Shown: piece by piece, positions 3,712 through 28,646 of the stretch
How positions within the stretch are numbered: the stretch's first letter is position 1
How the letters are laid out: the number at the start of each line of letters is the position of its first letter
Virus record (IMG/VR): IMGVR_UViG_3300031772_003481
Coordinates: 1 to 28,818 of that record
Direction: 5' to 3' (one strand)
DNA: 28,818 nt
Source of the DNA: a virus
Notes under the pieces: model-generated
Told to the model about the DNA's origin: nothing
Seen by the model: only the letters and a program-made list of their open reading frames with translations
The model's database searches: none
Position numbers and translations under genes: made by a program

Positions 3712-3740
3712 TTGCGGCGCTTCTAGCGTGCTGATACGTT
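3712..3740 (+). promoter_or_regulatory. Predicted promoter for a leaderless transcript
   Basis: TTGCGG (3712-3717), 17-base spacer, TACGTT (3735-3740), with TG one base before the -10. The ATG of the next gene is six bases after the -10, so the first transcribed base should fall at or beside the start codon. No ribosome binding site is present in the 20 bases before that ATG. Confidence 0.55.
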
Positions 3741-3746
3741 CCGTGC

Positions 3747-3947
3747 ATGTTCAAGAACATGAAGAGCCCGGCGAAAAATTCGAGCGTGCCCGCGAAGGAC
3801 GAAGAGGTGGTCGAAATCGACCCTCAGAAGGACGCGCCCTTTATCAATGGCGACCCGGTGAACACGGCTCGCTTCAAGCCTTCGGACTTGCCGATGGAAC
3901 CGGTTCGCCCGGTCCAGCCGCGCAGCCCGATGAAGAACATGAAATGA
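3747..3947 (+). CDS. Small Lys/Pro-rich protein with KNMK motifs at both ends
   Basis: A 66-residue protein of no recognised family. It opens MFKNMKSPAKN and closes SPMKNMK, so a KNMK tetrapeptide next to Ser-Pro occurs at both ends. The centre is acidic (DEEVVEIDPQKD) and Pro-rich. Predicted to be mostly disordered, with no membrane segment. It lies between the portal-associated head protein and the capsid accessory genes, so a minor head component is a reasonable guess. It lacks a ribosome binding site but has a promoter-like element immediately upstream, consistent with leaderless translation. The next gene ends in a related KNLK motif. Confidence 0.6.
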   Translation: MFKNMKSPAKNSSVPAKDEEVVEIDPQKDAPFINGDPVNTARFKPSDLPMEPVRPVQPRSPMKNMK

Positions 3948-3981
3948 CTTGCACCCCACGAAAGGAATGAGGAACACACAC

Positions 3982-4284
3982 ATGGAAAACAAATCTGGTA
4001 CTGGCTACACGAGCCCCTTCGGCGATGAAAAAGGCGCGACCACCGCAGCCGGACCTTCGACCGGTTCTCACGACTTCGTGAACAGCCCCGAGGGCAACGG
4101 CCCCAAGACGGGCGGCAAAGACGTGACCAAAGAAGCGATGGCGCAGAAGCCCGGCTCGACTCAGGAATGCGTCGATGAGGGAAGCACCGCGAAGACCCCC
4201 TGGGTTTTCTCGGACATGGACAAGAGCGGTCCCGGCATCGACGGCCTAAACCCGCCCGTTCCTTTCAAGAACCTCAAGGGCTGA
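3982..4284 (+). CDS. Small Gly/Lys-rich protein, unknown
   Basis: This 100-residue protein is rich in Gly, Lys, Thr and Pro, has low hydrophobicity and is probably disordered (segments such as TSPFGDEKGATTAAGPSTG and NGPKTGGKD). It ends PPVPFKNLKG, echoing the KNMK ends of the preceding gene. The ATG at 3982 is chosen because GAGG at 3969-3972 lies nine bases upstream; the ATG at 3967 is only one base beyond its possible AAGG. A role in the capsid is inferred from position only. No family recognised. Confidence 0.6.
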   Translation: MENKSGTGYTSPFGDEKGATTAAGPSTGSHDFVNSPEGNGPKTGGKDVTKEAMAQKPGSTQECVDEGSTAKTPWVFSDMDKSGPGIDGLNPPVPFKNLKG

Positions 4285-4290
4285 ACGTAG

Positions 4291-4713
4291 ATGAGCGGGC
4301 AAGTCTCATTCGGCGGGAACCTCGTCATCGGGCAAGTTGGCGTCTGCGAAGGCGCGGGCTTCCCCGCTGCGGTGTTCTCGATTCCGGTTCAGTTGGGCGG
4401 GGGTGCTGGCTGCGCGGGCTCGAAGCCTGCGTCGGTCAAGACCTACGGCACGTCTCAGGTCAATTCCCCGGTCGCGTTCGTTACGCTTCCGGGAGTGGGC
4501 GTGGGGCAACCGGTAACGAAGGGCAACTTCCTCTATCTGCGAACGGCCGTGAAAATGGACATTCGCCTGACGATGGTGGGAACCCCGGACACCGTTTCTG
4601 TACTCAACGTCCAAGGGATTCTCGTAATGGAGTTCCCTGACGCGAACACGCTCAAGCTACTTGAAGCGCAAGGCGTCGGGACGATTGAATACGCGGTGAC
4701 TGGTAACGAATGA
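4291..4713 (+). CDS. Candidate head accessory protein
   Basis: A 140-residue protein with Gly/Val-rich strands and no charged clusters, typical of small beta-structured phage head proteins. The last 50 residues (LTMVGTPDTVSVLNVQGILV and onward) look like a compact beta sandwich. It begins six bases after the previous stop. The ribosome site is weak (AAGGG at 4275-4279), so translation may be coupled to the gene before. Its position between the portal group and scaffold suggests a decoration, head fibre or head completion function, but I do not recognise a family. Confidence 0.6.
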   Translation: MSGQVSFGGNLVIGQVGVCEGAGFPAAVFSIPVQLGGGAGCAGSKPASVKTYGTSQVNSPVAFVTLPGVGVGQPVTKGNFLYLRTAVKMDIRLTMVGTPDTVSVLNVQGILVMEFPDANTLKLLEAQGVGTIEYAVTGNE

Positions 4714-4738
4714 CGACTGTGTTTGAAGGAGAAAAACA

Positions 4739-5413
4739 ATGATTACAACGAGCGACAAATCTATCAAATCGATTCTCAACCTTGCGAACCCCTCTGTGCT
4801 TGCGGACCTGCTCCGCAAAATCAAAGTGGGCGACGTGCTCCGTTCAATGAACGCGAGCTTGTTCAGCAAGCTCCCTGCTGCGGACGGTTCGCAGCTTGCG
4901 GTCCTCTTCGCCATCGTCCTTCCGGAAGATGCGAAGGCGCTTCACATCGTTCGCGCTTACGCCAAGACCGGCACTGCCGGCGTAGGCGAGCTGACCGTGG
5001 TTGCCTACGGCGTGACCCCGGCTTCGGGCGAGATTGCGGTTGCGCCCAACGGCGACATCGTGACCCTCGCTGCGGACGCGCTCACGAGCGTTGACCTCAC
5101 GTACACGCCTGCCGTTCAGGACGTGAAAGAGATGCTCCTCCCGGTTGCGGCTGGAGTTCTTCTCCTCCCCGCAGGCGTTCTCTCGGTTCTCGAAGCCACC
5201 GTCACCAAGGTGTCGGCTGGACTCGCGACCGGCAAGAAGGTTGTCCTCGTTCCGGGAGCGGCCCCCGCTGCTGGCGAAGCGGCTCTCACGCTTGCCAAGG
5301 ACGAAGTTCTTTTCGCCGTGGCTGACAACGCGACCGAAGCTCTCGTCAAGGTCGGCGTGGTTCCCGCGACGGACGTGAACGTCCTTCTCGAAACCGAATC
5401 GACGTTTGCCTAA
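4739..5413 (+). CDS. Candidate capsid decoration or head accessory protein
   Basis: A 224-residue protein with a helical N-terminus (residues 1-45, including LANPSVLADLLRKIKVGD) followed by strand-rich sequence with repeated Ala/Val/Gly blocks such as TVVAYGVTPASGEIAVAPNGDIV. Proteins of this style often lie next to scaffold and major capsid genes and bind the capsid surface. AAGGAG at 4726-4731 is seven bases from ATG and is one of the better ribosome sites here, which fits a product needed in many copies. Decoration is inferred from context and composition; a head fibre is an alternative. Confidence 0.6.
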   Translation: MITTSDKSIKSILNLANPSVLADLLRKIKVGDVLRSMNASLFSKLPAADGSQLAVLFAIVLPEDAKALHIVRAYAKTGTAGVGELTVVAYGVTPASGEIAVAPNGDIVTLAADALTSVDLTYTPAVQDVKEMLLPVAAGVLLLPAGVLSVLEATVTKVSAGLATGKKVVLVPGAAPAAGEAALTLAKDEVLFAVADNATEALVKVGVVPATDVNVLLETESTFA

Positions 5414-5425
5414 TAGGAGGAAGAG

Positions 5426-6283
5426 ATGGAAAATCAGGCGCTAAACACCATCGCTTCCGATACCGCAGTTGGAGCCACTGGTTCTGGGGCTGTCCCCGTT
5501 CCAGCGGCTCCGGCTGTTGTTCCCGCAGCCGCTCCGGCGATTGCATCACCTGCTCCCATCCCAGCGGAGCACATCCCGACTCGCAAGATGATTGGCGAGG
5601 ACGACGAGCTGCCCGAGGGGGCAGATGAGTTCGTGGTCAAGTCTTCGGCCTTCAAGCGCCGAATCGACAGGGCTCACAAGAAGCAACTCAAGGAAGAGTT
5701 CGGGACGGACGACCCGACCGAAATCAAGACGCGACTCCAAGAGCTGGACTCGTTCAAGGCGAAGCAGGAGGAGCAGCGGCTCGCTCAGCTTTCCGAGACC
5801 GACCGCATGCGGGAGGAGCTGAACCGATACAAGGAGGAAGCCGAGCGGTACAAGCTCGAAGCCTCAACGGTCAAAGAGACGTACGAGGTGCGCGAGCAGG
5901 ACCGGGAGATTGTCGGCAACGCCGAGAAGTTCTTCCAACCGAAGTACATGAACTTCGTGACCTACGAACTTTCGCAGCACCTTCAGAGCGTGTCCGAGGC
6001 AGCTCTCGGAGACGACCCGATGAAGTACATCAACGGGTGGATGAAAGAGTTCGCCGAGAAGAACCCGGCGATGGCTCAGCAGTCTGCGGCCCCTCCGGCC
6101 CCAGTTGCTCCTGAGCCGCAAGTCGTGGTTCAGAAGGTTGTCGCGCTCAACAACGGGGCTCAGGTGACGCCCCCAGACCGGACGCAGCACCTTGAGAACA
6201 AGACGGCGACCCCCAACCAACCGAACAGCATGACGGACGCCGAGTGGCGCGAGCACAAGCGCAGGCAAGGTTGGAATTTCTGA
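5426..6283 (+). CDS. Capsid scaffolding protein
   Basis: The 285-residue product has the usual plan of a phage scaffold: an Ala/Pro-rich flexible N-terminus (residues 1-50), a highly charged central coiled coil (about 100-165, ELDSFKAKQEEQRLAQLSET then MREELNRYKEEAERYKLEAS), a short folded helix region (about 170-215) and a second Pro/Gln-rich linker before a basic C-terminus (DAEWREHKRRQGW). The basic tail is where scaffolds usually contact coat protein. It lies directly before the major capsid gene. AGGAGG at 5415-5420 is a strong ribosome site five bases from ATG. No protease domain is visible, so maturation cleavage, if any, needs a protein outside this window. Confidence 0.82.
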   Translation: MENQALNTIASDTAVGATGSGAVPVPAAPAVVPAAAPAIASPAPIPAEHIPTRKMIGEDDELPEGADEFVVKSSAFKRRIDRAHKKQLKEEFGTDDPTEIKTRLQELDSFKAKQEEQRLAQLSETDRMREELNRYKEEAERYKLEASTVKETYEVREQDREIVGNAEKFFQPKYMNFVTYELSQHLQSVSEAALGDDPMKYINGWMKEFAEKNPAMAQQSAAPPAPVAPEPQVVVQKVVALNNGAQVTPPDRTQHLENKTATPNQPNSMTDAEWREHKRRQGWNF

Positions 6284-6292
6284 GATTTGACT

Positions 6293-6312
6293 GGAGCAGG
6301 GAAACCTGCTCC
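6293..6312 (+). terminator. Perfect 8-bp hairpin with GAAA tetraloop in the capsid leader
   Basis: GGAGCAGG and CCTGCTCC flank a GAAA loop, ten bases after the scaffold stop codon. A GNRA tetraloop on a perfect GC-rich stem is very stable. A run of T is missing (ATTCTCGTTTG follows), so it may act as a weak terminator, an attenuator between scaffold and coat, or a 3' end stabiliser of processed mRNA. Confidence 0.6.
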
Positions 6313-6513: not shown

Positions 6514-7932
6514 ATGGCAGATCAATTGGTTCTCGGGGTTCCACCGAGTGTTATGCAGCTCGTTCAGCAAGGTGCGCTCCAGCGAGCGTTCCACGATGGG
6601 CTTTACCCGAATCTCGGCTTCCGTTCCGAGGCGCTCTTTGAAGAGTGGCCCGCGAACGCCGGCACCGAGCACTTCATGACTCGTGCGGGACTTCTCCCCC
6701 CGATTACTGAGCCGCTCAAGCCCGGTGACGACCCTCTTCCCCAAGAGTCCGTCTACGAGCAGTGGAGCGCGGTCCTTCGTCAGTTCGCTGGCGCAAAGGA
6801 TGTCCACATGCCTTCGTCCGTCGTCTCGAACGCCAACCTGTTCCTCCGAGAGATCAAGAACCTCGGACTCCAGTCGGCGCAGAGCATCAACCGCGTCTCG
6901 CGCAACACGCTCTTCAAGGCGTACCTCGCGGGCCACACGGTCACGACGGTCGCTCTTGTCGGCACCGAGTCGGTCCTCCAGGTGGCGTCGCTCAGCGGCT
7001 TCACCGATGTCATCACGTCCATCACGGTTCGTCCGGTTCCGGTCAGCCCAGCGGTTCCGCTTCCGATTACGGTCGGCACGGGCATCGCTAAGGTTTCGGC
7101 CAACGTTGTCGGGACTCTTCCCGATGACCCGACCGACCCCGAGGGACCAGGCAAGCTCGTTCTCTCGGCTGCTATCGGCACGGCATTCGCCGTCCGAGCC
7201 CCAGTCGTGAGCAAGTTCGCAGCATCCGTCATCCGTGCTGCGGGCGGTGACTCTGTGGACGCGATTGGTCCGAACGACACGCTCGTGCTTCAGCAAGTCA
7301 TCAACGCGGTCGGTACGCTTCGAGATTCGAACGTTCCCACGCACGACGACGGGTTCTACCACGCGCACCTTTCGGGTTCGTCCAACGCTCAGTTCTTCCA
7401 GGATCCTGTGTTCCAGCGCCTAAATCAGTCGCTGCCTGAGCACACCATCTACAAGGAAGGTTTCATCGGGACCATTGCGAACGTGATGTTCTTCATGAAC
7501 CCGGAAGCGCCCCGTCAGGGCAACTCCGGCAAGGAAACGACGAACGTAGGTTCGGCCGGTTCCCCGACGACCCCTGGCATCTACGCCAAGGATCTCGGAG
7601 CCGAAGTGGTCAACGGACTCGGCGTCAAGGTTGGCCGTGTCATCATCACGGGCAAGGGCTCTCTCTACGAGAAGGGTCTCGACGAGGGACAGTACGTCAC
7701 CGAAGCCGGTCTGAACGGCAAGGTCGGCGAGTTCGATGTTGTGAACAACGGCGTCCAGATCATGGCCGAACGTATTCGCCTCATCCTTCGTGCGCCGGTC
7801 GACCGCCTTCAGCAGAAGGTCGGCTTGGCTTGGAGCATCACGACCTCATTCGCTCCTCCGAGCGACATCACCGCGCCCACTGGCCCGCAGCGATTTAAGC
7901 GCGCTCTGGTCCTTGAGCACGCGCTCGGCTAA
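6514..7932 (+). CDS. Major capsid protein, N4 gp56-like (HK97 fold)
   Basis: This 472-residue protein is the coat subunit. The region after residue 250 matches the plan of the N4 gp56 coat family: a helix, then NVPTHDDGFYHAHLSG, an acidic-aromatic segment (QDPVFQRLNQ) and EGFIGTIANVMFFMNP, followed by a beta-rich segment and a C-terminal HDxF-like equivalent replaced by LAWSITTSFAPP. Residues about 145-245 are Val/Pro/Thr-rich and look like an inserted beta domain. The gene follows the scaffold, has its own long leader, and is closed by a strong hairpin, all as expected for the most abundant product. ATG at 6514 is eight bases after AAGGA. Confidence 0.82.
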   Translation: MADQLVLGVPPSVMQLVQQGALQRAFHDGLYPNLGFRSEALFEEWPANAGTEHFMTRAGLLPPITEPLKPGDDPLPQESVYEQWSAVLRQFAGAKDVHMPSSVVSNANLFLREIKNLGLQSAQSINRVSRNTLFKAYLAGHTVTTVALVGTESVLQVASLSGFTDVITSITVRPVPVSPAVPLPITVGTGIAKVSANVVGTLPDDPTDPEGPGKLVLSAAIGTAFAVRAPVVSKFAASVIRAAGGDSVDAIGPNDTLVLQQVINAVGTLRDSNVPTHDDGFYHAHLSGSSNAQFFQDPVFQRLNQSLPEHTIYKEGFIGTIANVMFFMNPEAPRQGNSGKETTNVGSAGSPTTPGIYAKDLGAEVVNGLGVKVGRVIITGKGSLYEKGLDEGQYVTEAGLNGKVGEFDVVNNGVQIMAERIRLILRAPVDRLQQKVGLAWSITTSFAPPSDITAPTGPQRFKRALVLEHALG

Positions 7933-7958
7933 TCGCTGAGCCGAATCGTCGGTGGCAT

Positions 7959-7999: not shown

Positions 8000-8021
8000 C
8001 CGTCGAAGGAGGCGAAACCAA

Positions 8022-8369: not shown

Positions 8370-8372
8370 TAG

Positions 8373-8787: not shown

Positions 8788-8796
8788 TGCTAAATC
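8788..8796 (+). promoter_or_regulatory. Extended -10 element placed for a leaderless lipoprotein mRNA
   Basis: TGC then TAAATC (8791-8796), with the lipoprotein ATG seven bases after it. This is the same geometry as upstream of 3747, 20604, 22832 and 28275. A GGAG touches the ATG directly and is too close to work as a normal ribosome site. No convincing -35 is seen. Confidence 0.4.
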
Positions 8797-8803: not shown

Positions 8804-9127
8804 ATGAACTTCTCCAAATCGATTGTGGCGTTGGCGGTGGTTGCGAACATGGCAGGGCTCGGGGGCGTCTTCGTCCTTCAGGGATGCTCCGCGACGATGA
8901 CGAAGCAAATCGTCAAGAGCGTCATCGACGTTGCGTTGGCCGCGTGCGTCGCCGAGCACACCGAGATTCAGGACGAGCCCGCGCTTCGTGAGACGTGCAA
9001 GTACGCGGACGAGCTTGCTCCCGCCGTGAAGGAGATTCTTTCTTCGCGGTCCAAGGGTATGGCGAAGCTCGCCAAGGCAGGCCCGGCTTGCCCCCAGGTT
9101 GCCCCAGGACGCGACGGCGGGCTCTGA
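8804..9127 (+). CDS. Small lipoprotein, probable cargo (moron) gene
   Basis: This 107-residue protein begins MNFSK, continues with a 20-residue hydrophobic stretch (IVALAVVANMAGLGGVFV) and then LQGC, a signal peptidase II lipobox with Cys at residue 28. The mature part is a short helical protein with three further Cys. It should be lipid-anchored in the cell envelope, which is not expected of a virion part inside the neck gene cluster. Known phage lipoproteins (T5 Llp, TP-J34 Ltp) block superinfection; an Rz1-like outer spanin is another option, though no paired inner spanin lies next to it. The ATG at 8804 is chosen because it alone gives a signal peptide. Function is inferred. Confidence 0.7.
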   Translation: MNFSKSIVALAVVANMAGLGGVFVLQGCSATMTKQIVKSVIDVALAACVAEHTEIQDEPALRETCKYADELAPAVKEILSSRSKGMAKLAKAGPACPQVAPGRDGGL

Positions 9128-10312: not shown

Positions 10313-11124
10313 AGGAGGGTCGGGAGCTTTCGCCCGAGCTTCGTGCGCTCCTTTTCGGGGAGCCGTTTGGGGAGGTGTATCCTCAGAGGCCGAACCCGCC
10401 CCCGCTCGCGGTGGACGGGCGCACGGCAGCGCTTCGCATCCTTCGCCAGTACTTCTCGGAGCTTATTTTCCAGCGAGCTATGGGCGTGGACCCGGCGACC
10501 GACAAAGACCTTCCGCCGAAGCAGTTCCGGTTCCCCATCAATGACATCCACATCTCGTGGCCCGACTACGAAAAGGCGCTCGTCTTCCCGAGCATCGTGA
10601 TGCTGGCGGGCACGGGGAACTTCGAACCGCTCGGGCTAGGGACGTATTGGAACGAGGAGACTCGGGACAAGTACGGCAAAGGGACCATCGTCCAGTACCA
10701 AGCCGACTACGTGGAGGAGTTCACGGTGGAGATTTGGGCAGCGAAGCGCCCCGAGCTTCGGGCCATTCTTGCGGGCATCCAGGTTGCGCTCTCTCCGACC
10801 GAGACGATGTACGGCATTCGCTTTCGCGTGCCCGAGTACTTCGACCAGCTCGTGTGCTTCACGCCGGGCTCATCGACGATTGTGGAGGAGTCCCCCGACG
10901 CTCAGAACCGACGCAAGGCGCGCATCACCATCGAGATGCGCATGAACCAAGTCGCGTTGGTGAACTACGACATCCTGACTCCGACCGTCGAGATTGTGAC
11001 GGACGGGCTCGGAGCTGACCTCGGGGGAGTGACAGTGAACCCCGACTACTTGGAAAACAGAGCTGATACGCAGGCGCCATGTGTCCCCGAAGACCCATGC
11101 GGACCCTGCGACGAAGAGAATTGA
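10309..11124 (+). CDS. Tail terminator candidate with Cys-rich end
   Basis: A 271-residue protein coupled to the previous gene through a GTGA overlap. Residues about 135-230 (YVEEFTVEIWAAKRPELRAI onward, TMYGIRFRVPEYF, then RKARITIEMRMNQVALVNYD) alternate strand and helix in a way that suits a tail terminator, and gene order (gp10-like, this gene, sheath) puts it there. It is about twice the usual terminator length. The extra parts are an N-terminal helical segment and a C-terminal acidic tail with three Cys (CVPEDPCGPC). The terminator role is inferred mainly from order. Confidence 0.6.
   Translation: MKEGRELSPELRALLFGEPFGEVYPQRPNPPPLAVDGRTAALRILRQYFSELIFQRAMGVDPATDKDLPPKQFRFPINDIHISWPDYEKALVFPSIVMLAGTGNFEPLGLGTYWNEETRDKYGKGTIVQYQADYVEEFTVEIWAAKRPELRAILAGIQVALSPTETMYGIRFRVPEYFDQLVCFTPGSSTIVEESPDAQNRRKARITIEMRMNQVALVNYDILTPTVEIVTDGLGADLGGVTVNPDYLENRADTQAPCVPEDPCGPCDEEN
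11064..11072 (+). promoter_or_regulatory. Extended -10 element inside the end of the preceding gene, upstream of sheath
   Basis: TGATACGCA: TG, one base, TACGCA (11067-11072), the same element as upstream of 3747 and 28275. It lies 126 bases before the sheath ATG. Six bases beyond it an ATG (11079) opens a 25-codon Arg-rich reading frame ending at 11156. It could drive the sheath with a 119-base leader; the -35 is poor. Confidence 0.3.
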
Positions 11125-11197: not shown

Positions 11198-13729
11198 ATG
11201 AGCGTATTCATCCGACGATTCAATTTTGACCCAGGAAACGATGTCCTTTTGGAGATCGAATCGGTCAACATCCTAGACCTCGAACCACCTTCTCCAATCG
11301 CGGGCATCGGCACTGGGACGGCGATGGTCGTTGGCGAAGCCGAAGACGGTCCCTTCGAGACGCCGGTTCAAGTCGCCGGTACGACGGACTTGGTTCAGCA
11401 GTTCGGCTCCATCGGCTACACCTACGGGAGCGTGCCTGCGAATAACCCGAGCGCCCGCTCGCGCAAGGCGGACGGGGCGCTGACGCCTGAGTACTGGAAC
11501 GGCAACATGCTGGTTCAGCTCAACGCGAAGCGGTACCGAAGCCTCATCGCGGTGCGTGTTGATACGAGCATCGGCTCGGTCGAGTTCAAGCGCCAAGCGT
11601 ACGTGACTGGAGTCTCGCAGTTCTCCTACAACATGGAGCCCGGACAGGTGCTTCAGGCGGACATCGGAGCTGGCCTTGTCAGCGCGACGTTCACGGCCAC
11701 GGCTGCGGTGCTCACGGGCGTCGCGGGCGTCTTCCCGACTCTCTTCGTTGGCGGTGAAACGCTCACCCTCGGGTTCGACGATGAACCGAACTTCACGGTG
11801 ACGTTCCTCGCGACCGACCAGAGCCAAGCGCAGGTCATCTCTCGCATCAACGCGGCTGCTGGCTTCACGTTCGCCTCGATTGGTGGCGTGGACATCACGA
11901 GCTTCACGAGCTTCCGTCGTGGCGCTGGTGCTCAGTCTCGCGTCGTCAGCGCGAGCGCGGTTGGCGTCCTTACGGCGCTCGGGCTCACGGCAGGAACGTC
12001 TGCGGTCGGCACCGGTAACGTGTACGACATCGACGCGGTGAAGTATTCCGAGCTGAAGACGGTCACGGAATTGGCGATTGCCGGGCTCAAGGTCGAGCAG
12101 GACTCGTCCGGGAACCCCCGATTGACCAAGACGTTCGTCGCTGCGGGCGACTACCTCATGGTCGGTCCTGGGACGACGGCGCTTGCGTTCGGCTTCACGC
12201 CATACCAAGAGGGCTCGAACGACGGCAAGGCGTACCTCCTCAGCACGGCGGGAACCTTCCCTCTGACTCAGGCGGGCACGGTCACGCTGGGCGTGGACGA
12301 AGAAAACAACGTCACTGTGGCGTTGGCCATCGCCGATACTCAGGCGAACGTCATCACGAAAATCAACGCTGCGGCTGGCTTCACGATGGCATCATCCGTC
12401 TCGGGCACGCTCACGCTCCTCCAGGGGCGTGCGAACGGCGGTCAGGTTCGCATCACGGGCTCGTCCAACGCGCTTCTGATGGGCGAGCTTGGGTTCGTAG
12501 TTGGAACGACCGTCACGACTCCTGCGGTCGTCTCGGGCACCATCCCAGCGGGGACGGAAGTCACCAACGCTGCGAGCACGGTCAAGTTCGTCACGATGCA
12601 GACCCTCGACGTGCTTGCGACGAACGTCGGTCCGTATACCGTCAAGGTGCGCCATGCGCTCGATGACGGGACGGGCGTTGCGGCTCTCGCGGGAACCATC
12701 GTCAAGACGACCCTCGGAGTGGACCTCGGGAGCTTCTGGGTGTTGAACCCGGCGAACATCGGGGCGGCTCTTACCGAGCTTCAGATTGACGCTCAGTACC
12801 AGAAGGCGTTCGACTCGACCCTCGTGCTCAACTCGGTTGCGCGTCGGGCGAACGTTGCTTGGTGCGCTCGCCAGTCGAACTCGACTCGACGGGCGCTTCG
12901 TCTGAACGTCATCCGGGCGAGTCAGATTGGAATGTTCGGGCGCATGGCTGCGCTCCGTACTCCGATGAACACCAAGAAGCTCGCGGCACGGTCGAACGTG
13001 GCCGAGCCTGGAGTGGGTGCCTACCGCTCCGAGCGGGTCATCTACTGCTACCCCCAGGCTGCTTCGTTCGTGCCGATTATGGCGCAACGTGGGCTGGCTG
13101 GCGGGGCAGGCTTCACGGCATCGGGTGTCATCGACATCGGGGCTGACGGATTCATCTGCTCCATCCTGAGTCAGTTGGCTCCCGAGGAGAACCCGGGCCA
13201 AGAGACTCCGTTCTTGGACGGTGTGGTTGGCTTGGAGTCGGGGGCGAACGTCCAGGGCTTCACCGAGGACGATTACAAGCTGTTCAAGTCATCGGGCATC
13301 TGCGCCCTTCGAATTGACGACACGAGCGGGCCGGTCTTCCAGTCGGGCATCACTTCGGTGGACCCGTTGGTGAACCCGAACCTCGTGCGCATCTCGCGTC
13401 GGCGAATGGCGGACTTCATCCAGGACTCGCTCGCGATTCGAATGAAGAAGTACGGGAAGAAGCTCAACCGGGCAGCGCGGCGTGATGCTGCGGTGTCGGA
13501 GATTCGGGACTTCCTGAACGACCTTCTCAGCCCGGGCCGACCGGAGTTCCAACGCATCGATGGGTTCACCGTTGATACTCGGGACGGGAACACGCCTGCC
13601 ACAATTGCTGCGGGTCTGTTCCGCATCCTGGTGAAGGTTCGGACCCTCTCCTCGCTCGACAGCATCGTGCTGGCGACGACCGTGGGCGAGAGCGTCGAAG
13701 TCGAAGAAGTCATCCCGGCTGCGGCCTAA
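11198..13729 (+). CDS. Tail sheath protein with two inserted repeat domains
   Basis: At 843 residues this is a large contractile sheath subunit. The last 300 residues carry the conserved sheath core: RRANVAWCARQ, APEENPGQ, the strand GICALRIDD, VNPNLVRISRRRMADFIQDS, and a closing beta segment. The C-terminal arm would interlock neighbouring sheath rings. Between the two halves of the core lie two copies of a roughly 80-90 residue domain (about 186-268 and 359-442), each with INAAAGFTxAS at its centre. The domain resembles the flagellin IN/hook motif in layout, which is an inference. Such inserts usually decorate the sheath surface. CAGGAG precedes the ATG. The tube gene follows 31 bases later. 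Confidence 0.93.
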   Translation: MSVFIRRFNFDPGNDVLLEIESVNILDLEPPSPIAGIGTGTAMVVGEAEDGPFETPVQVAGTTDLVQQFGSIGYTYGSVPANNPSARSRKADGALTPEYWNGNMLVQLNAKRYRSLIAVRVDTSIGSVEFKRQAYVTGVSQFSYNMEPGQVLQADIGAGLVSATFTATAAVLTGVAGVFPTLFVGGETLTLGFDDEPNFTVTFLATDQSQAQVISRINAAAGFTFASIGGVDITSFTSFRRGAGAQSRVVSASAVGVLTALGLTAGTSAVGTGNVYDIDAVKYSELKTVTELAIAGLKVEQDSSGNPRLTKTFVAAGDYLMVGPGTTALAFGFTPYQEGSNDGKAYLLSTAGTFPLTQAGTVTLGVDEENNVTVALAIADTQANVITKINAAAGFTMASSVSGTLTLLQGRANGGQVRITGSSNALLMGELGFVVGTTVTTPAVVSGTIPAGTEVTNAASTVKFVTMQTLDVLATNVGPYTVKVRHALDDGTGVAALAGTIVKTTLGVDLGSFWVLNPANIGAALTELQIDAQYQKAFDSTLVLNSVARRANVAWCARQSNSTRRALRLNVIRASQIGMFGRMAALRTPMNTKKLAARSNVAEPGVGAYRSERVIYCYPQAASFVPIMAQRGLAGGAGFTASGVIDIGADGFICSILSQLAPEENPGQETPFLDGVVGLESGANVQGFTEDDYKLFKSSGICALRIDDTSGPVFQSGITSVDPLVNPNLVRISRRRMADFIQDSLAIRMKKYGKKLNRAARRDAAVSEIRDFLNDLLSPGRPEFQRIDGFTVDTRDGNTPATIAAGLFRILVKVRTLSSLDSIVLATTVGESVEVEEVIPAAA
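11753..12002 (+). repeat. Sheath insert domain, copy 1
   Basis: Encodes residues about 186-268. Key landmarks are TLTLGFDDEPNFTVTFLATD, then Q-x-Q-V-I-S-R-INAAAGF (INAAAGF at 217-223), then a strand segment and ALGLTAGTS. It aligns along its length with copy 2, which lies 172 residues later. Confidence 0.7.
12272..12523 (+). repeat. Sheath insert domain, copy 2
   Basis: Encodes residues about 359-442. Landmarks are TVTLGVDEENNVTVALAIAD, ANVITK-INAAAGF (389-395), then GQVRITGSSN and ELGFVVGTT. Order and spacing match copy 1, so this is an internal duplication of a domain inserted into the sheath. Confidence 0.7.
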
Positions 13730-13760: not shown

Positions 13761-14201
13761 ATGGCCGAAAATCAGCGCATAAAAGGGCAAGAGGTAAATA
13801 TTCTCATCGTCGTGGGGTCGGAGCTTCAGGACCAACTCACGGAGATTTCCGACTTCGAGTTCAACGACGAGCAGGAGATTCTCCAGCAGGGGTTTCTCGG
13901 CCAGACGACGGACCAGTACGACTACGTGTACAAGGGGACGAAGGGGAAACTCACCCTTCAGATTCACACGTCGCAGTACTTCGAGTTTCGGAAGAAGATC
14001 AACGACAAGGCCACACGCAAGTCACCGGACACGCGCTTCAACCTGACGGCGACTGCGAACTTCCCGAACGGGGAGAAGAAGCGGATCCTGTTCCCGAACG
14101 TTTCATGGGGAAACATCGGGCACGGCATCCCAGGGCGAACCGAGTACGTGAAGATTTCGATGGACTGGGCGACATCGAACACGGACGAGTCCGACGCCTG
14201 A
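13761..14201 (+). CDS. Tail tube protein
   Basis: A 146-residue protein directly after the sheath, the usual place for the inner tube subunit of contractile tails. It has the expected small beta-barrel character: alternating strands (EVNILIVVGSEL, YDYVYKGTKGKLTLQI, RFNLTATANFPNGEK, RTEYVKISMDWATS) with one short helix (SQYFEFRKKINDKA). AAGGAG at 13749-13754 is six bases from ATG. The T4 gp19-like fold is inferred from length, order and strand pattern rather than a diagnostic motif. Confidence 0.83.
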   Translation: MAENQRIKGQEVNILIVVGSELQDQLTEISDFEFNDEQEILQQGFLGQTTDQYDYVYKGTKGKLTLQIHTSQYFEFRKKINDKATRKSPDTRFNLTATANFPNGEKKRILFPNVSWGNIGHGIPGRTEYVKISMDWATSNTDESDA

Positions 14202-18673: not shown

Positions 18674-20590
18674 GTGCCTCCTCCAGTTCGAAGCATTCAG
18701 ACGGCGAACGATACGCTAGCGAGCACGCAGAGCGTCGCTCGCGCGGTGCCCGTCCAGACCTACTACGTGTCGGCCAAGGTTCGGATGTCGGTCCGGTTTG
18801 AGGAATACGGGCAGCAGACCAAGACCGACAAGCCACCGACCAAGAGCACTCTTCGGGCAAAGGGGACTTCCGACCCTCGCAGCGGGCTGAAGGTCATCGA
18901 AGACCCAGGTGCGCCCACGGGCATCAAGCGATTCGTTGTGGTTTCTTCTGCCGCGAATCCCGGAGCAGCGTCGGGAGTGTCCGGGACCAAGGATGCCGGG
19001 AGCGGGACTCAAACCCTCGACGGGCTCATTCCGATGACGGCATCGTGGAAGCAGAACAGCGTGAAGGAAGCCGACCAGCTCACGCTCAAGTTCAAGTACA
19101 CCGACTTCCCGATGGACCCGCGAGCGATTCGCTCGGTCTCGGTGGAGTTTTACTTGGGAACGGTGAAGCCGGAAGACCATGCGCGGGGCATGCGTGGGGA
19201 GAACCGCGACGCATCCTTCGACCGAGGGGAGGAGCCGCTCAACGTCATCCCGGACAACTGGGTGGACGATAACGGGAAGATGCGGACGAACCTTCGCTTC
19301 GAAGGGTGGGCCGACAAGATAAAGATTTCACTCCCCGAGGACGGACAAGCGACGGTCGAGATGGAGTGTCGCGACAACACCTGCTTGCTCATCAAGGAGA
19401 AGCGTCCGCCCCAGTTCTTCATGGATACGGAGATTCCCATCGACGAAGCGGTGGCGAAGTACCTGACGCTCTTCAAGCAGTGCCAGGGGCTCTCGGTCGA
19501 GTACCGCCCGATTGGCGTGCGTGACGACAAGACGCCTCCCCGATTGAAGCAAGCATCGAAGGGTGTCTATCCTCCGAACCTCGGTCCGCCCGCTGCGAAG
19601 GACGGCGGGGGCTCAGATGCCGGGAGCGTGCTCGACTACCTCATCGACTGCGTGGGCTCGCTCGGACATTCGCTCCGAGTCGAAGGGACGCGCATCATCA
19701 TTCAGCAGGCGCAGTCGCTTCTCGATGGTCTTTCTCAGCAGCGACAAGACGACCCGTATGTGGCTCGCGTGACGGAGGAGGGGCGGTGGCCGATTCGCGC
19801 GATGCTCTGGGGGCAGAACATTCAGACGCTCGATGTCACGCGCGACTACGCGCGGAACGAAGCGAAGAACGTCGAGGTGCGCTGCTACGACCCGATACGG
19901 AAGAACCTCCTGGTGGCCCGGTACCCGTTGAAAGAAGGACGTGTGGAGTCGAAGCCTCCCGGTGAGGGGAAAAGTGACAACGCTTGGATCGTGCGTCGCG
20001 TGTCGGGCATCCGGGACCAAGCGACGTTGAACAACATCGCTCGTGAAGTGTTCGAGAATCAGAACCGACGCGAGCTTGAAGTGGCGGTGAAGACGAAGAA
20101 CCTTGCTTCGTTCGGTGGCGGGAACAGCGACCCGGACCTACTTGACCTCCGACCGGGAGACGACCTTCAGATTGAACTCGATGCGAATCCCGACTCCACG
20201 ATTGGAGGCATCGAGCAGACGCTTCGCAACGAAGAGAAGCGGGACGCGCTCATCAACGCCGGGTTCTCAACGAAGTTCGCTGCGGCCTATATCAAGTCGT
20301 ACACGGACGGGGGCTTCCAGCGCATCTTCAAGGTGCGAGAGGTGAGTGCCGATTGGGGCGACGAAGGCATTTCGTTTGACCTATCAGCGGTGAACTTCAT
20401 CGAGGCTCGCGTCGAGAAGGGCAAGAAGCTACCCGAAGCATTGGTGGCAGCGAAGCCTCGTAAGGTGGCTCCGAAGCCAGCAGCGGTGCTTCCTACTTCG
20501 TCGAACTCTGTGAGCACATCGGGGCCGGTCAGCTCCCAAGAGCAGATTTCTTCTCAGGAGCCGAACTCCTCATCCTCGTCCGGGCCGTGA
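18674..20590 (+). CDS. Baseplate hub protein (gpD/gp27-like) with Ser-rich tail
   Basis: A 638-residue protein immediately before the spike, in the place of Mu gp44/P2 gpD/T4 gp27 hubs. Supporting features: SWKQNSVKEADQLTLKFKYTDFP and an adjacent VEFYLG strand near residues 120-155, IKISLPEDGQATVEMECRD near 215, a helical linker, RIIIQQAQSLLDGL, and LDLRPGDDLQIELD before a final fold. These are the strand-loop patterns of late-control hub proteins. The last 30 residues are a Ser/Gln-rich tail with SSQEQ-like repeats. GTG at 18674 is seven bases after GGAGG (18662-18666). The stop TGA forms part of the next promoter-like element. Confidence 0.78.
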   Translation: MPPPVRSIQTANDTLASTQSVARAVPVQTYYVSAKVRMSVRFEEYGQQTKTDKPPTKSTLRAKGTSDPRSGLKVIEDPGAPTGIKRFVVVSSAANPGAASGVSGTKDAGSGTQTLDGLIPMTASWKQNSVKEADQLTLKFKYTDFPMDPRAIRSVSVEFYLGTVKPEDHARGMRGENRDASFDRGEEPLNVIPDNWVDDNGKMRTNLRFEGWADKIKISLPEDGQATVEMECRDNTCLLIKEKRPPQFFMDTEIPIDEAVAKYLTLFKQCQGLSVEYRPIGVRDDKTPPRLKQASKGVYPPNLGPPAAKDGGGSDAGSVLDYLIDCVGSLGHSLRVEGTRIIIQQAQSLLDGLSQQRQDDPYVARVTEEGRWPIRAMLWGQNIQTLDVTRDYARNEAKNVEVRCYDPIRKNLLVARYPLKEGRVESKPPGEGKSDNAWIVRRVSGIRDQATLNNIAREVFENQNRRELEVAVKTKNLASFGGGNSDPDLLDLRPGDDLQIELDANPDSTIGGIEQTLRNEEKRDALINAGFSTKFAAAYIKSYTDGGFQRIFKVREVSADWGDEGISFDLSAVNFIEARVEKGKKLPEALVAAKPRKVAPKPAAVLPTSSNSVSTSGPVSSQEQISSQEPNSSSSSGP

Positions 20591-20596
20591 TACAAC
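20588..20596 (+). promoter_or_regulatory. Extended -10 element built on the hub stop codon, leaderless spike mRNA
   Basis: TGA (20588-20590, the hub stop) then TACAAC (20591-20596), with the spike ATG seven bases later. No ribosome site lies in that interval and no clear -35 is visible. Geometry is the same as at 8788, 28259 and others. Confidence 0.45.
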
Positions 20597-20603: not shown

Positions 20604-21659
20604 ATGAGAGGGACCATCGACGAAGCGAACTTACGGTCATTGGTGTCCGGCCCTGGGACCGACACGCGCCAGTGGGTCTCGTACGGGTTCGTCGCTCAGG
20701 ACACTTCCGAAGCTCGGAGCGTCATCTTCAAAGACAAGGACGGCGTGCCTCTGGAGACAGGGCCGCTTGTCACAGTGGCGCTTCAGCCATCGGGAGCACT
20801 CGTGGCTTGCCGAGTGGCGTCTTGGGTCGCCGGCATCGGGGAGGGTTCATGGTTCCCGTTCCAGGAGCGAGATGAAGTCATCGTCGCCATTCCGGGCGGG
20901 GACGAGGGGGCAGGGCCGGTCATCATCGGACGATTGAACCAAGCGCTCGACACGTTCCCGACTGTGGTCGCCGGAGCCGACCCGACGAAGAACAACGTGG
21001 CCTTCATTCGCATACGCCCACCGCTCATCCTTGAGTCCGCCGAAGCGGTGCTCATCCACAACGCGAAGACGGGGGCTCAGATTTCGCTCAGCGGGGAGGG
21101 CAACGCGCTCATCTCGGACGGAGCCCGAAACCACCTGTTCTTCTCGTCCGATGTCGTGGCGCTGGAGACGGGCGACAAGGAAGTGTTCGTTCAGCTCCAA
21201 GTGGCTTCCAAGCGGCTCGCGTTCAAAGCGGGAGCGGCTCAGCTTCAGCTCGCGAACTCGATTCTCGACACGTCGTTCCTCTTGGCTCCTGGGACGTTCA
21301 ACCTCGGGACGAGCGGGGCTGCGGGAAAGGGGCACGCAGTTTCCACCGAGCAGCTCATGGCGACGCTCGCGAACCTTGTTTGCGGACTAGCTGCGGCGGG
21401 GGCGTTTGCCGCTGGTTCCCCGTTCGGGGCTCCGGCTTGGCCTGCGTCATCTCCCGTTGTTCTCGACGCGCTACTTGCGGCGCTCTATACGGCTCAAGGC
21501 GGGACTACACCAATCGGGACGGGGGGTTTGCCGGGAGGGAGCACTGCGACGCTTTCTACGGCATCCTCGGCGCTCCGAACGGCATTGGCATCCCCGACCC
21601 CGACCTTGGACGCGACGGGCCTGATTCCTGGCGTCGGAGTCCCAGGTCTGATTTACTGA
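20604..21659 (+). CDS. Baseplate spike protein (gpV/gp45-like)
   Basis: A 351-residue protein after the hub. Residues about 20-115 have the OB-fold pattern of central spike proteins (RQWVSYGFVAQDT, PLVTVALQPSGALVACRVAS, ERDEVIVAIPGGDEGAGPVIIGRLN). Residues 130-245 are short strands with NALISDGARNHLFFS, SDVVALETGD and similar, like the intertwined beta helix of a membrane-piercing trimer. The C-terminus from about 255 is Ala/Gly/Ser-rich and may carry or contact the tip. It starts without a ribosome binding site, 13 bases downstream of the hub stop, behind an extended -10 element, so leaderless expression is suggested. Confidence 0.82.
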   Translation: MRGTIDEANLRSLVSGPGTDTRQWVSYGFVAQDTSEARSVIFKDKDGVPLETGPLVTVALQPSGALVACRVASWVAGIGEGSWFPFQERDEVIVAIPGGDEGAGPVIIGRLNQALDTFPTVVAGADPTKNNVAFIRIRPPLILESAEAVLIHNAKTGAQISLSGEGNALISDGARNHLFFSSDVVALETGDKEVFVQLQVASKRLAFKAGAAQLQLANSILDTSFLLAPGTFNLGTSGAAGKGHAVSTEQLMATLANLVCGLAAAGAFAAGSPFGAPAWPASSPVVLDALLAALYTAQGGTTPIGTGGLPGGSTATLSTASSALRTALASPTPTLDATGLIPGVGVPGLIY

Positions 21660-22810: not shown

Positions 22811-22825
22811 GCGGCCTGTTACATT
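22796..22825 (+). promoter_or_regulatory. Predicted promoter for leaderless gpJ-like mRNA
   Basis: TTCGCA (22796-22801), 18-base spacer, TACATT (22820-22825) with TG one base before it. The ATG is six bases after the -10 element and no ribosome binding site lies between. Confidence 0.5.
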
Positions 22826-22831: not shown

Positions 22832-23938
22832 ATGGATTTGCCGAGCCGTCTTGATTTGTTTAGCAAAGGTCGGGCGTACGTCGTCCAGCGCGCGAAGAAG
22901 ATTGACCCCGGACAGGTCGATGTCGCGGGGAGCGACGTCAACATCTTCGTCGGGTCGAGCAGCGTCATCGCGTATCAAGTGCTCAGGCAGCTCTGCTACC
23001 GAACCGCAGCGCTGACGCTCGACGGAGCGGAAGACGAAGACCTAGACCGGCTCATCTATGATCGCTACCAGGAGTTCAGGAAGGGGGCTTCTTCGGCCAA
23101 GGGGCGCTGTCAGTTCCGTCGTCCGACCTTCGCGGCTGGAGCGGGGACCGTAGGCGCTGGCTCACGCGTGCGTACGGGGGACGGCATCGAATACATCCTC
23201 GTGACCGATGCTTCCTTCGGAGCGACGGACCTTTCTTCGGCAGCTGATGTTCGTGCGGTCGAAGCGGGCAAGGACACGCAGGTCGGGAAGAACCGAATCA
23301 ACCAGTTCTCGGAAGCAGCTTCGGTCTTCGACGGCACCATCACGGTCAACAATGACTTGGAGACGGCGGGTGGTGAGAACGCCGAGACGAACGACCAAGT
23401 GCGGAACCGGGTTCGCAAGTTCTGGCGGACGGCCCGACGAGGAGTGCTCAGCGCCATCGAGTTCGGAGCCCTTCAGGTTCCCGGAGTCGTTTCGGCCCAA
23501 GCCTACGAAGTGCTGTCCCCGGATGGGACCGCAGCACGGCTCGTGAACCTTTACATCGCGGACTCTTCCGGGGTGTCAAACGAGCAGCTTGCGAACGATG
23601 TTCGCGACTCGCTCCTTGAGTACCGTGCCGGGGGCATCCAGGTGCTCATCGCAACGAGCCTTCCGCTCCTCGTAGGCATCCAGCTCAAGCTCACCTTCCG
23701 AGCGAACGTGGATACGCGCACGCTTTCCACCAACATCCAGAGCGGCGTGGTGGCTTTCGTCAATTCGCTCCCGGTGAATGGTCCGCTCTACAAGGGGCAG
23801 CTATTCTCGGTACTTCAGCGGTACGCGGAAGACGGCGTGATTGTGAACGAAGGGTCGATTCTCGCGCCTACGGGCGACCTCATTCCAGGAGTCGGGCAGA
23901 CCATCCGAACCACGCTCGCGAACGTGGTCTTGACCTAA
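22832..23938 (+). CDS. Baseplate wedge protein, gpJ/gp6-like
   Basis: A 368-residue protein with the plan of the baseplate J family (P2 gpJ, Mu gp47, T4 gp6 core). Seen: an N-terminal region with AYQVLRQLCYRTAALTLDGA and EDEDLDRLIYDRYQ, a central strand domain (GAGSRVRTGDGIEYILVTDA, VRAVEAGKDTQVGKNRIN), the signature GGENAETNDQVRNRVRKFW followed by GVLSAIEFGALQVPGV, and a C-terminal alternating alpha/beta segment (LLVGIQLKLTFRANV, GPLYKGQLFSVLQRYAED). It forms the wedge ring that triggers sheath contraction. Its start lacks a ribosome site, and an extended -10 element sits directly upstream. Confidence 0.87.
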   Translation: MDLPSRLDLFSKGRAYVVQRAKKIDPGQVDVAGSDVNIFVGSSSVIAYQVLRQLCYRTAALTLDGAEDEDLDRLIYDRYQEFRKGASSAKGRCQFRRPTFAAGAGTVGAGSRVRTGDGIEYILVTDASFGATDLSSAADVRAVEAGKDTQVGKNRINQFSEAASVFDGTITVNNDLETAGGENAETNDQVRNRVRKFWRTARRGVLSAIEFGALQVPGVVSAQAYEVLSPDGTAARLVNLYIADSSGVSNEQLANDVRDSLLEYRAGGIQVLIATSLPLLVGIQLKLTFRANVDTRTLSTNIQSGVVAFVNSLPVNGPLYKGQLFSVLQRYAEDGVIVNEGSILAPTGDLIPGVGQTIRTTLANVVLT

Positions 23939-25924: not shown

Positions 25925-25950
25925 CGGTGGGACTTTTAGGAGGATGACAG

Positions 25951-27591
25951 ATGGACGGATTTCGGAAGATGCAGATCAACTCGCGTGAGCGAGCCATTTC
26001 GACGGACATCAACTCGCTTCAGACTTTCCATGGCCAAGACCTCGCGGAGCTGCTCCGCGCGCTGGTCGATTCGAAGTTCGAACGCACGGCGGTTGGCGTC
26101 ACTGAGTCCACCAACTCGGTCCTCGGAACCCCGGTCACAGCAGCCGTCTTCCAAGGGCTCCTGGTCCAGCCCCAAGCTGGAGCTTCGGACGTGCTCGTTG
26201 TGGCGGGGCTTGCCTGCTTCATCAATCCCGACGCGGCTGCGGACGAATCCAATTACAAGTTCATCCGAGACGTGGGAGTGAGCGCCCTTGGAACGCTCCT
26301 CATCGCCCCGAACCCCGGCATCTCGGCTCGCGTGGACGTAGTGGAATGCCAAATCAATCCGACGCCTCTCACGTCGTCTCAGAGCCGTGACATCTTCGAC
26401 CAAGTGTCCGGGCTTTTCACTGCTGCGAGTGTCGTGAAGACGACTCAGGGGCGGCTCGTCTACCGAGTTCGTCAGGGCCTTATCGGCTCGGGCTATCCCG
26501 GGAACGCTGCGGGCTGGCTTCCTCTTGCGGTCGTGGTCGCGCCTGCCGGTTCGACCAACAACGATGGCTGCGAGTTCTGGGATGTGCGTCCGATGCTTCA
26601 GGACCGCACGAGCGGGCTGATGAACGTCGTGGACACTGAAGCCCGAGTCGTTCTCGATGGTTCGTTCGCGGATTGCCAGTTGACGTCTACGGCGTCTGGG
26701 AACCCGGAAATCACGGGCGTCCTTCGCGCGAACTACCTGGGGATGGTTGCCGGTGGTACGTGCAAGACGACCATCGCGGGAGTGGACACGAACTACATTC
26801 ATGCCGATGCAAGCGGGCCGAACGCGGACCCGTTGAATCCTCCGTCTGCGGGTGGAGTCAATTGCTCGGTGTTCGCGTGTTTCCCGTTCGGGTTGCCTCG
26901 GTGGTGTCGGTACAACCGAACACCTCTCGCGCGCACGCCTGGACCGTTCAACGGGATTCCGGTTGTGTCATCGCGGCAGGCGGGTGCACGCGGGGAGATT
27001 CAAATCGGCTTTGAAGTGCGCCTCCCGACATCGATGGGATTTGGAGTGGTGGATGTTTCCACGGGAGTTGCGATTCTGACTTCTACGTGTGATGCGGGGG
27101 TCGCGACTATGGCTGAGTGTTCGATGCGGGACCGGAAGGTGATTTGGAGCAGCTCCACGGCATGGAACCTCGCATCGACGAGCAACACGCCGACTTCGCA
27201 GACGTTCACGTTCACGGAGAACGCCAACTTCCCGCGAAACATCATCAAGATGGGGCACCAGGACAAGGCTCGATTTTTGATCATTCCTGGCGCCGGCACC
27301 GGGTTCGGTGGTGGTGGTCAACCGATTCTCGTGCAGCGCGTTGGGTTCTTTTCTCCGAGCGGTTGGAACATCGAGGAGACGATGACGGAGACGGTGTGGA
27401 TTCCTGGGATGCAAGCGGGCCAATCCTTTCCACAAACGGAAAGTAAGCTCTACTGGCACTCGATTCCTACGGCGCACCCCGATGCCGGACCCTATGTGCT
27501 TACCTACACGCGTTCGTGGATTTCGTTGTCACCGACAGGCTTCATCATCATCAATGACCCGTTGGTGATGCGTGGCTGGGAAATGCGTTGA
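25951..27591 (+). CDS. Tail fibre / receptor-binding protein
   Basis: A 546-residue protein after the baseplate genes. The N-terminus (MQINSRERAISTDINSLQTF then HGQDLAELLRALVDS) is a helical baseplate-attachment segment seen in phage fibres. The rest is almost wholly beta: residues 70-260 include SARVDVVECQINPTPLTSSQ, and the C-terminal 250 residues hold aromatic and Gly/Ser/Thr-rich strands (FGFGGGG-like loop GTGFGGGGQPILVQRV, WHSIPTAHPDAGPYVLTYTR, SWISLSPTGFIIINDP), typical of receptor-binding tips. About eight Cys residues are scattered through the middle. AGGAGG at 25938-25943 is seven bases from ATG. The two genes after it are small, so no obvious fibre chaperone is seen. Confidence 0.75.
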   Translation: MDGFRKMQINSRERAISTDINSLQTFHGQDLAELLRALVDSKFERTAVGVTESTNSVLGTPVTAAVFQGLLVQPQAGASDVLVVAGLACFINPDAAADESNYKFIRDVGVSALGTLLIAPNPGISARVDVVECQINPTPLTSSQSRDIFDQVSGLFTAASVVKTTQGRLVYRVRQGLIGSGYPGNAAGWLPLAVVVAPAGSTNNDGCEFWDVRPMLQDRTSGLMNVVDTEARVVLDGSFADCQLTSTASGNPEITGVLRANYLGMVAGGTCKTTIAGVDTNYIHADASGPNADPLNPPSAGGVNCSVFACFPFGLPRWCRYNRTPLARTPGPFNGIPVVSSRQAGARGEIQIGFEVRLPTSMGFGVVDVSTGVAILTSTCDAGVATMAECSMRDRKVIWSSSTAWNLASTSNTPTSQTFTFTENANFPRNIIKMGHQDKARFLIIPGAGTGFGGGGQPILVQRVGFFSPSGWNIEETMTETVWIPGMQAGQSFPQTESKLYWHSIPTAHPDAGPYVLTYTRSWISLSPTGFIIINDPLVMRGWEMR

Positions 27592-27601
27592 AAGGAAGAA
27601 C

Positions 27602-27829
27602 ATGTCTACAAGTTACATTTACGTACCTGGGCAAAAGCAGTGCCCCAAGTGTGGCGGTGGCGTTGCCGACCCCGGGCATCTAACAGCGGTGGGTGCTATG
27701 CCAGCGCGTCCGTTTCAGACGCTTTCGCTGACATGCGCCGACGTGGGATGCGGAACGTATAACGGTGCGAGTCCTATCGGGACGTCGAATGCGACGGCAG
27801 AAGACGTTGCCGCGTGGGGCGACTTCTAA
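27602..27829 (+). CDS. Zinc-ribbon miniprotein
   Basis: A 75-residue protein with CPKC at residues 14-17 and CADVGC at 45-50, a CX2C-X27-CX4C arrangement suited to one zinc ion. The segment between the pairs (ADPGHLTAVGAMPARPFQ) is short and loop-like, and the C-terminus is Gly/Ser/Ala-rich. AAAGGAAG ends four bases before the ATG at 27602; an in-frame ATG at 27572 lies inside the fibre gene and lacks a ribosome site. Small zinc ribbons bind nucleic acid or proteins; after a fibre gene it could also be a structural tip or assembly aid. Function unknown. Confidence 0.62.
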   Translation: MSTSYIYVPGQKQCPKCGGGVADPGHLTAVGAMPARPFQTLSLTCADVGCGTYNGASPIGTSNATAEDVAAWGDF

Positions 27830-27872
27830 AGGGTGGCTTCTGCCGGGAGCGTGCTCTACTGAAGGGACCAAG

Positions 27873-28241
27873 ATGCAAATCGATATGGGGATTCTCAGCA
27901 TCGCGATGTCCATCATGGTCGCCGTCTTCTCTGCCCTTGGACGTGCGGCGCTCGGAGCGCGGGAACGAGAGCTGGACGGGAAGATTTCCGCCCTACACGC
28001 TACGGCCGAAGACTTGGGAAGGCGCGTCGCGGTCGAGGAAAAGGAAAGCATCCGGCAGGCTGGGACCATCGAGCTGATTCGGGTCACGCACGGCGACCTG
28101 AAGCGGGACGTGGAAGACATCAAGTCGGAGATGCTGACGAGGACCGAATACGAGCCGCGCATGAGCAGCATCGAGAAGTCACTCTCCACGCTCATTACCG
28201 AGATTCGGGAGATGCGCTCTGAGCGAAACGCTGGGAGATGA
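27873..28241 (+). CDS. Membrane-anchored coiled-coil protein, lysis-region candidate
   Basis: A 122-residue protein with one N-terminal membrane segment (residues about 5-25, MGILSIAMSIMVAVFSALG) and then a charged helix to the end (RERELDGKISALHATAEDLG, RRVAVEEKESIRQAG, EDIKSEMLTRTEYEPRMSS, LITEIREMR). This is the shape of inner-membrane spanins and of holin-linked accessory proteins. Its neighbour is a holin-like protein. AAGGG at 27862-27866 is six bases before the ATG at 27873. A spanin role is inferred from topology; no outer-spanin partner is adjacent, though a lipoprotein gene lies at 8804. Confidence 0.6.
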   Translation: MQIDMGILSIAMSIMVAVFSALGRAALGARERELDGKISALHATAEDLGRRVAVEEKESIRQAGTIELIRVTHGDLKRDVEDIKSEMLTRTEYEPRMSSIEKSLSTLITEIREMRSERNAGR

Positions 28242-28267
28242 CAGCGGCTCGGGGAGGCTGATACGCT
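28238..28267 (+). promoter_or_regulatory. Predicted promoter for leaderless holin-like mRNA
   Basis: ATGACA (28238-28243), 18-base spacer, TACGCT (28262-28267) with TG one base before it. The -35 matches five of six sigma-70 positions and contains the stop codon of the upstream gene (28239-28241). The ATG of the holin-like gene is seven bases after the -10; GGGGAGG at 28251-28257 is 17 bases from it and too far to act as a ribosome site. Confidence 0.58.
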
Positions 28268-28274
28268 TTCCCGC

Positions 28275-28646
28275 ATGAAGACTCTCACCGACTCCCAAAA
28301 CATCGCTCTCATCGCCGTCGTGGTCGGAGCCCTGGTCAAGACCCTCAGCACCGAGAAAGTGTCCGCGCTCCTCGACAAGCTCCCGGTCAGCTTCGTGAAC
28401 CGCATCCCGAAGTTCGCCCTTCCCTGGGTTTCCTTGGCGCTAGGCGTCGCCCTGATGGCCTTGGACGCGAAGCTGAATGGCGGACTGGCTACGTGGAAGC
28501 AAGCCTTCGCTACGGCGCTTCAGGGAGCCATTGCAGGGGGCTTCGCCATCGCAGGGCACGAGGCTGTGTTCAAAGCACCGGCCCGCATCAAGGAGCACCG
28601 CGCTTCCTCGATGCCCCCACCTGCTCCTCCCGTCTCGAAGCTCTGA
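28275..28646 (+). CDS. Holin-like membrane protein
   Basis: A 123-residue protein with three hydrophobic segments: residues about 8-24 (NIALIAVVVGALVKTL), 47-66 (ALPWVSLALGVALMAL) and 76-95 (FATALQGAIAGGFAIAG). The C-terminus is basic then Pro-rich (PPPAPPVSKL). Three segments, small size, basic tail and position at the end of the structural block fit a class I holin that permeabilises the inner membrane. No endolysin lies in the window, so the lysis assignment is not confirmed. It probably starts leaderless from the element just upstream, which would allow control independent of the baseplate genes. Confidence 0.65.
   Translation: MKTLTDSQNIALIAVVVGALVKTLSTEKVSALLDKLPVSFVNRIPKFALPWVSLALGVALMALDAKLNGGLATWKQAFATALQGAIAGGFAIAGHEAVFKAPARIKEHRASSMPPPAPPVSKL

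Follow-up and report, generated by a model that had tools for sequence, protein, structure and literature searches.

How are genes in the head-tail block of a phage started when no Shine-Dalgarno sequence precedes them? This question is raised by the window, as the whole stretch of DNA analysed here is called; it is a complete IMG/VR record (28,818 bases, G+C content 61%). The window holds part of the genome of an uncultured phage with a contractile tail. In the search for isolate relatives none close was found; the nearest isolate capsids, about 31% identical, belong to Komagataeibacter and Streptomyces phages. The features discussed are collected in Table 1. The sheath of the window is unusually long and aligns to that of the relative G001 as two blocks (1-333 and 430-837), which suggests that it may carry a variable insertion.

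Table 1 Genes and putative promoter elements of the window, and sigma-region-2-like matches in related contigs (contig coordinates)
Feature	DNA	Position	Strand	Remarks
Portal	window	897	+	
MuF-like head gene	window	2706	+	
Possible weak -35, TTGCGG	window	3712..3717	+	spacer 17; sequence only
Extended -10, TGATACGTT	window	3732..3740	+	6 bases 5' of ATG 3747
66-aa gene, no assigned function	window	3747..3947	+	after MuF-like gene; predicted leaderless
Major capsid	window	6514	+	
TGCTAAATC, not member of the set	window	8788..8796	+	before ATG 8804
Neck-type gene	window	9803	+	
Tail sheath	window	11198-13729	+	843 aa
Tail protein	window	13761	+	
Extended -10-like, TGATACAAC	window	20588..20596	+	last T missing; 7 bases 5' of ATG 20604
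Baseplate-spike-like gene	window	20604..21659	+	weak match to Phage_base_V (E 0.005; under the Pfam cut-off); leaderless start predicted less firmly
Extended -10, TGTTACATT	window	22817..22825	+	6 bases 5' of ATG 22832
Baseplate wedge (J-like) gene	window	22832..23938	+	predicted leaderless
Extended -10, TGATACGCT	window	28259..28267	+	7 bases 5' of ATG 28275
Holin-like gene	window	28275..28646	+	PHROG holin families (E ~2e-4); predicted leaderless
Sigma-region-2-like	G001	28669-28815		
Sigma-region-2-like	G003	60235-60417		
Sigma-region-2-like	G004	13780-13959		
Sigma-region-2-like	G010	7604-7804 and 48635-48799		
Sigma-region-2-like	G015	31229-31360		
Sigma-region-2-like	G016	80725-80874		
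Sigma-region-2-like	G022	64008-64151		
Sigma-region-2-like	G028	75646-75792		

A preliminary description had assigned extended -10 promoters to five genes without a ribosome binding site, starting at 3747, 8804, 20604, 22832 and 28275. The five upstream sequences and their distances were recovered as quoted there: TGn is followed by TACGTT, TAAATC, TACAAC, TACATT and TACGCT, respectively, and the hexamers begin 12 bases (3747, 22832) or 13 bases (8804, 20604, 28275) before ATG. Four sites (3747, 20604, 22832, 28275) share TGnTAC with a gap of 6-7 bases between hexamer and ATG. The start codon is ATG at all four, and a usable Shine-Dalgarno sequence was found at none of them; in the window such a sequence, 5-7 bases long, precedes many of the other genes. 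For these four genes, among them the wedge and the spike-like gene, the claim of an extended -10 element at a fixed distance without Shine-Dalgarno sequence holds. The fifth had to be removed from the set. At 8804, TAAATC has neither the last T nor the C at the third base, GGAG touches the ATG, and in G003 a normal leader rich in purines stands before the orthologue. Within the remaining set the sites 3747, 22832 and 28275 match the pattern TAnnnT at some 10-12 bases from the start codon. The site at 20604 is weaker than these three, as TACAAC lacks the final T and departs from the pattern. The predicted leaderless genes of the window are four structural or lysis genes with counterparts across the relatives.

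A motif that is picked after viewing many starts may reflect nothing but chance, and one internal match is indeed present in the window. This lone match, at 11064, opens a frame of 25 codons and is a chance occurrence. For the set as a whole the counts speak against chance. TGnTAC 6-7 bases before ATG was found for 4 of 22 assigned ATG starts versus 1 of 711 other ATGs (1/309 on the same strand, 0/402 on the opposite strand); taken over all 33 starts of the window, only four carry the signal, a point against the promoter reading. The regions upstream of the 22 starts were put through 4000 dinucleotide shuffles: 3945 runs gave no match, 55 gave one and none gave two or more. As the motif had been chosen after looking at the window, an independent test in a family of related phages was sought, and for the same reason this test outweighs the window statistics.

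The family was gathered by searches with the sheath, the capsid and an alignment of four wedge sequences, which yielded viral contigs and two contigs from genome bins; a scan with the wedge protein alone found no relatives. Including the window, the set comprises 29 contigs with 1.56 Mb after removal of near-duplicates, and most contigs were taken in full. The G+C content is 44% for G001 (IMGVR_UViG_3300044712_001570) and 41% for G014; the other members mostly have 57-71%. G001 has the same gene order as the window, and the wedge identity is 56-58% for the two relatives with low G+C content.

In these contigs we counted, by distance, the cases in which TGnTAnnnT precedes an ATG whose frame has 80 codons or more and begins no more than 150 bases from a stop. 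The distances peaked at 6 bases (32 cases) and 7 bases (23 cases), 55 in total. Nearly all other distances had about 0-5 cases, the largest value being 10, at 19 bases. GTG starts showed the peak as well, with 9 cases at 6 bases and 5 at 7 bases. No peak was obtained in the family set when TTG, CTG or ACG took the place of the start codon, nor with the altered motifs GTnTA, TCnTA and TGnAT, and the histogram was flat for ATGs opening frames of fewer than 40 codons. Because altered motifs, non-start codons and short-frame ATGs gave no peak, the signal is bound to real gene starts at an exact distance. The boxes were also considered as starts of non-coding RNAs and rejected as such, since the histogram is flat for ATGs without frames. 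The comparison of motif-to-start spacing with controls had been set beforehand as a refutation test for the promoter proposal, and its outcome favours this proposal in the window shuffles as well as in the family. The independent peak at 6-7 bases contradicts a chance origin, which, together with the shuffles and the internal ATGs of the window, we regard as ruled out for all practical purposes.

The core of the family box is TGnTA(G/C)(G/C)CT. At the third base of the hexamer the window phage and G001 have TAC, the relatives mostly TAG or TAC. A Shine-Dalgarno match of at least five bases was present at only 5 of 65 signal-bearing starts of the family. The start codons of these 65 are ATG (48), GTG (14), TTG (2) and CTG (1), so that 62 are ATG or GTG. 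What the computation shows is a motif at a fixed distance, confined to gene starts, recurring in the family and lacking Shine-Dalgarno sequences.

With high probability, the boxes are sigma-70-type extended -10 promoters that would give leaderless mRNAs. We infer transcription from the boxes, a 5' end at the ATG and late use. A sigma-70-type factor would recognize TGn and TAnnnT 6-7 bases 5' of the start codon, transcription would begin at the A of ATG or at the base before it, and an mRNA without leader would result. The ribosome would then enter at the AUG on the 5' end and not at a Shine-Dalgarno site. In the late head-tail block the boxes would act as extra entry points, and a gene such as that of the wedge could be transcribed from its own start plus read-through. 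A different reading takes the TAnnnT box for a translation signal or for a leftover of AT-rich start regions, on a leadered mRNA whose translation takes a route other than Shine-Dalgarno or continues from the gene upstream by reinitiation. It could build on the box at 20604, where TGA also terminates the upstream gene, and on the distance of 13-36 bases at which the genes follow the preceding gene. However, the box is not a stop codon at 3747 or 28275, and TGn with T at the sixth base is promoter grammar without known translational meaning. Furthermore, TTG is frequent among the Shine-Dalgarno-type starts and nearly absent among the signal-bearing starts, as expected for leaderless mRNA. A translational role of the box is improbable in our view.

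For the boxes as promoters, the question arises which sigma factor would read them. In extended -10 promoters TGn stands immediately 5' of the hexamer and a -35 can be spared; at the family boxes TGn is enriched over the GTn and TCn controls, and a strong -35 is absent. For some of the window sites -35 boxes had been described at 17-18 bases. They are present there at this spacing, but they are not supported as a common feature: among about 70 family sites no strong shared -35 was found, and the similarity to TTGACA at spacers 16-18 exceeded the level of other offsets by little, with at most a slight excess at 17-18. A small sigma factor with region 2 and without a recognized region 4 would fit a -10 box without strong -35, a logic that parallels the late promoters of T4 and gp55. 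The latter is a small phage sigma factor with region 2 only. A match to Sigma70_r2 was found in all eight family contigs of at least 76 kb (Table 1). Five contigs were above the Pfam cut-off and three of the nine matches below it, those of G001 and G022 being among the latter. Five of the sigma-like proteins form one family with 32-47% identity, and Pfam region 4 was not recognized in its scanned members. A weak profile match to the solved sigma factor CnrH was obtained as well. G010 also encodes a sigma-like protein with region 4.

Hence, a sigma factor of the phage, more than the housekeeping sigma factor of the host, may be the main reader of the boxes, a proposal that we consider possible but doubtful. 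The sigma-like proteins, the missing strong -35 and the position of most signal-bearing genes on the structural strand in 18 long contigs are in line with it, the strand counts being blurred by false open reading frames in GC-rich DNA. On the other hand, TGnTAnnnT is also read by housekeeping sigma factors, the candidates are divergent and none is encoded in the window fragment, and signals occur outside the structural block too. A strict late-gene specificity of the signal is suggestive only. The search for a T7-type RNA polymerase gave no match, and neither did its control.

The comparison of orthologues shows conservation as well as turnover of the signal. The boxes of the wedge genes are TGTTACATT in the window, TGTTACTAT in G001, TGATAGGCT in G024 and TGATAGGAT in G028, at a protein identity of 32-56%. 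The third base is C or G; TG, TA, T and the distance are constant. For the wedge gene of G018 TAGCCT without TG was found in the same arrangement. Directly 3' of the MuF gene, where 3747 lies in the window, G001 carries TGATACCAT-N7-ATG, and the orthologues of 20604 in G016 and G018 have the full TAGGCT-N7-ATG. Across the family the signal was also found at spike and wedge genes. In relatives it stands at portal, sheath, neck-type and other structural genes for which the window has a Shine-Dalgarno sequence or neither. Gene 21669, for example, has AGGAGG in the window versus a -10 signal in G001, G014 and G018. Judged from these upstream regions, the mode of initiation, leaderless or by Shine-Dalgarno sequence, seems to be interchangeable between orthologues over evolution. 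The full picture would be an uncultured contractile-tailed lineage whose own region-2-only sigma factor fires -35-less TGnTA(G/C)(G/C)CT boxes 6-7 bases before starts and so gives leaderless late mRNAs inside the virion block, with genes switching between leaderless and Shine-Dalgarno initiation in evolution. We put this forward tentatively, as a rather unlikely combination. In G001 (reverse orientation) close box matches, TGCTACATTATCCGCATG and TGGTACACAACCCCGCATG, also occur at 59457-59474 and 71309-71327, followed by frames of 2 and 10 codons; these are possibly short-RNA promoters or chance matches.

Regarding the host, contigs of relatives sit in an Armatimonadetes bin (L056) and in a "proteobacterium" bin (L057). 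In these two genomes and in 150 + 61 relatives of them, TGATA(G/C)nnT-N6-ATG was found at background counts only. That both bins belong to groups lacking the signal is a point against the leaderless reading, but in view of the counts binning errors, or unrelated hosts, are likely. WhiB, which occurs in some actinobacterial phages, was found in none of the 29 viral records searched. Small plasmid samples from five other phyla (Granulicella, Nocardioides, D. deserti, Thermomicrobium and Gemmatirosa) did not exceed the control for the TG-extended signal.

Translation of leaderless mRNA has been described for several bacterial phyla and a few phages; as a way of beginning a protein it is uncommon. 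To our knowledge, phages have rarely been shown to use leaderless starts for virion genes. In the uncultured family a conserved and positionally exact signal, predicted to give leaderless starts, stands at virion genes (portal, sheath, spike, wedge). Its interest lies mainly in how virion genes keep or exchange it and in the possible phage sigma factor. With the switching orthologues nature provides a series in which one can ask what makes a gene take the leaderless or the Shine-Dalgarno mode. If the mRNAs are leaderless, the host range would be narrowed to bacteria that translate such mRNA. Gene callers relying on Shine-Dalgarno sequences may misplace starts in such phages.

T4 late promoters resemble the boxes of the phage family, as they have a -10 element without -35 and serve virion genes. 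In contrast, the late mRNAs of T4 have leaders and the element is TATAAATA; the box of the phage family differs and is predicted to be leaderless. A counterpart to the boxes is known from bacteria. The TAnnnT signal was defined by Zheng (2011), with more than 20% leaderless genes in Actinobacteria and Deinococcus-Thermus (PMC3160421). For Deinococcus, a -10 motif 6-7 bp before the open reading frame, most commonly TACACT, was identified as promoter of leaderless genes by mutation in a reporter (PMC12340547). The TA-led genes of Deinococcus-Thermus are like the phage boxes in having TAnnnT 6-7 bases before the start and no ribosome binding site, and TACACT was found in the phage family too. The TGn extension is prominent in the phage family, whereas in a D. 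deserti plasmid (50 kb) TAnnnT was weak and mostly without TG. The promoters of Deinococcus are proven by reporter; the phage-family boxes are predicted from sequence.

Among phages, the distance count was repeated with Pseudomonas D3, Myxococcus Mx8 and Streptomyces Kromp, for which no peak was obtained, and with the Thermus phage phiYS40 (100 kb), which gave the same peak with 8 and 4 cases at 6 and 7 bases. As cited in PMC3594737, Sevostyanova (2007) mapped 5' ends of phiYS40, and most of its middle and late mRNAs are reported there as leaderless. This phage shares the contractile tail and the -10 boxes 6-7 bases before ATG with the window phage; it differs in its known thermophilic host, its AT-richer genome and its mapped 5' ends. 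For Cluster O mycobacteriophages SigA-like leaderless promoters were predicted, one of them in the structural operon for a leftward gene (PMC4351075). Here the likeness lies in the predicted +1, which coincides with the first letter of the start codon, and in the promoter inside the structural operon, the difference in the actinobacterial hosts. The preliminary description had considered leaderless promoters inside a phage head-tail operon unusual. In view of the leaderless mRNAs of phiYS40 (PMC3594737) and of the Cluster O prediction (PMC4351075) they are not unique to the window phage. The leaderless promoter is a known kind of signal, predicted now for a new group of phages.
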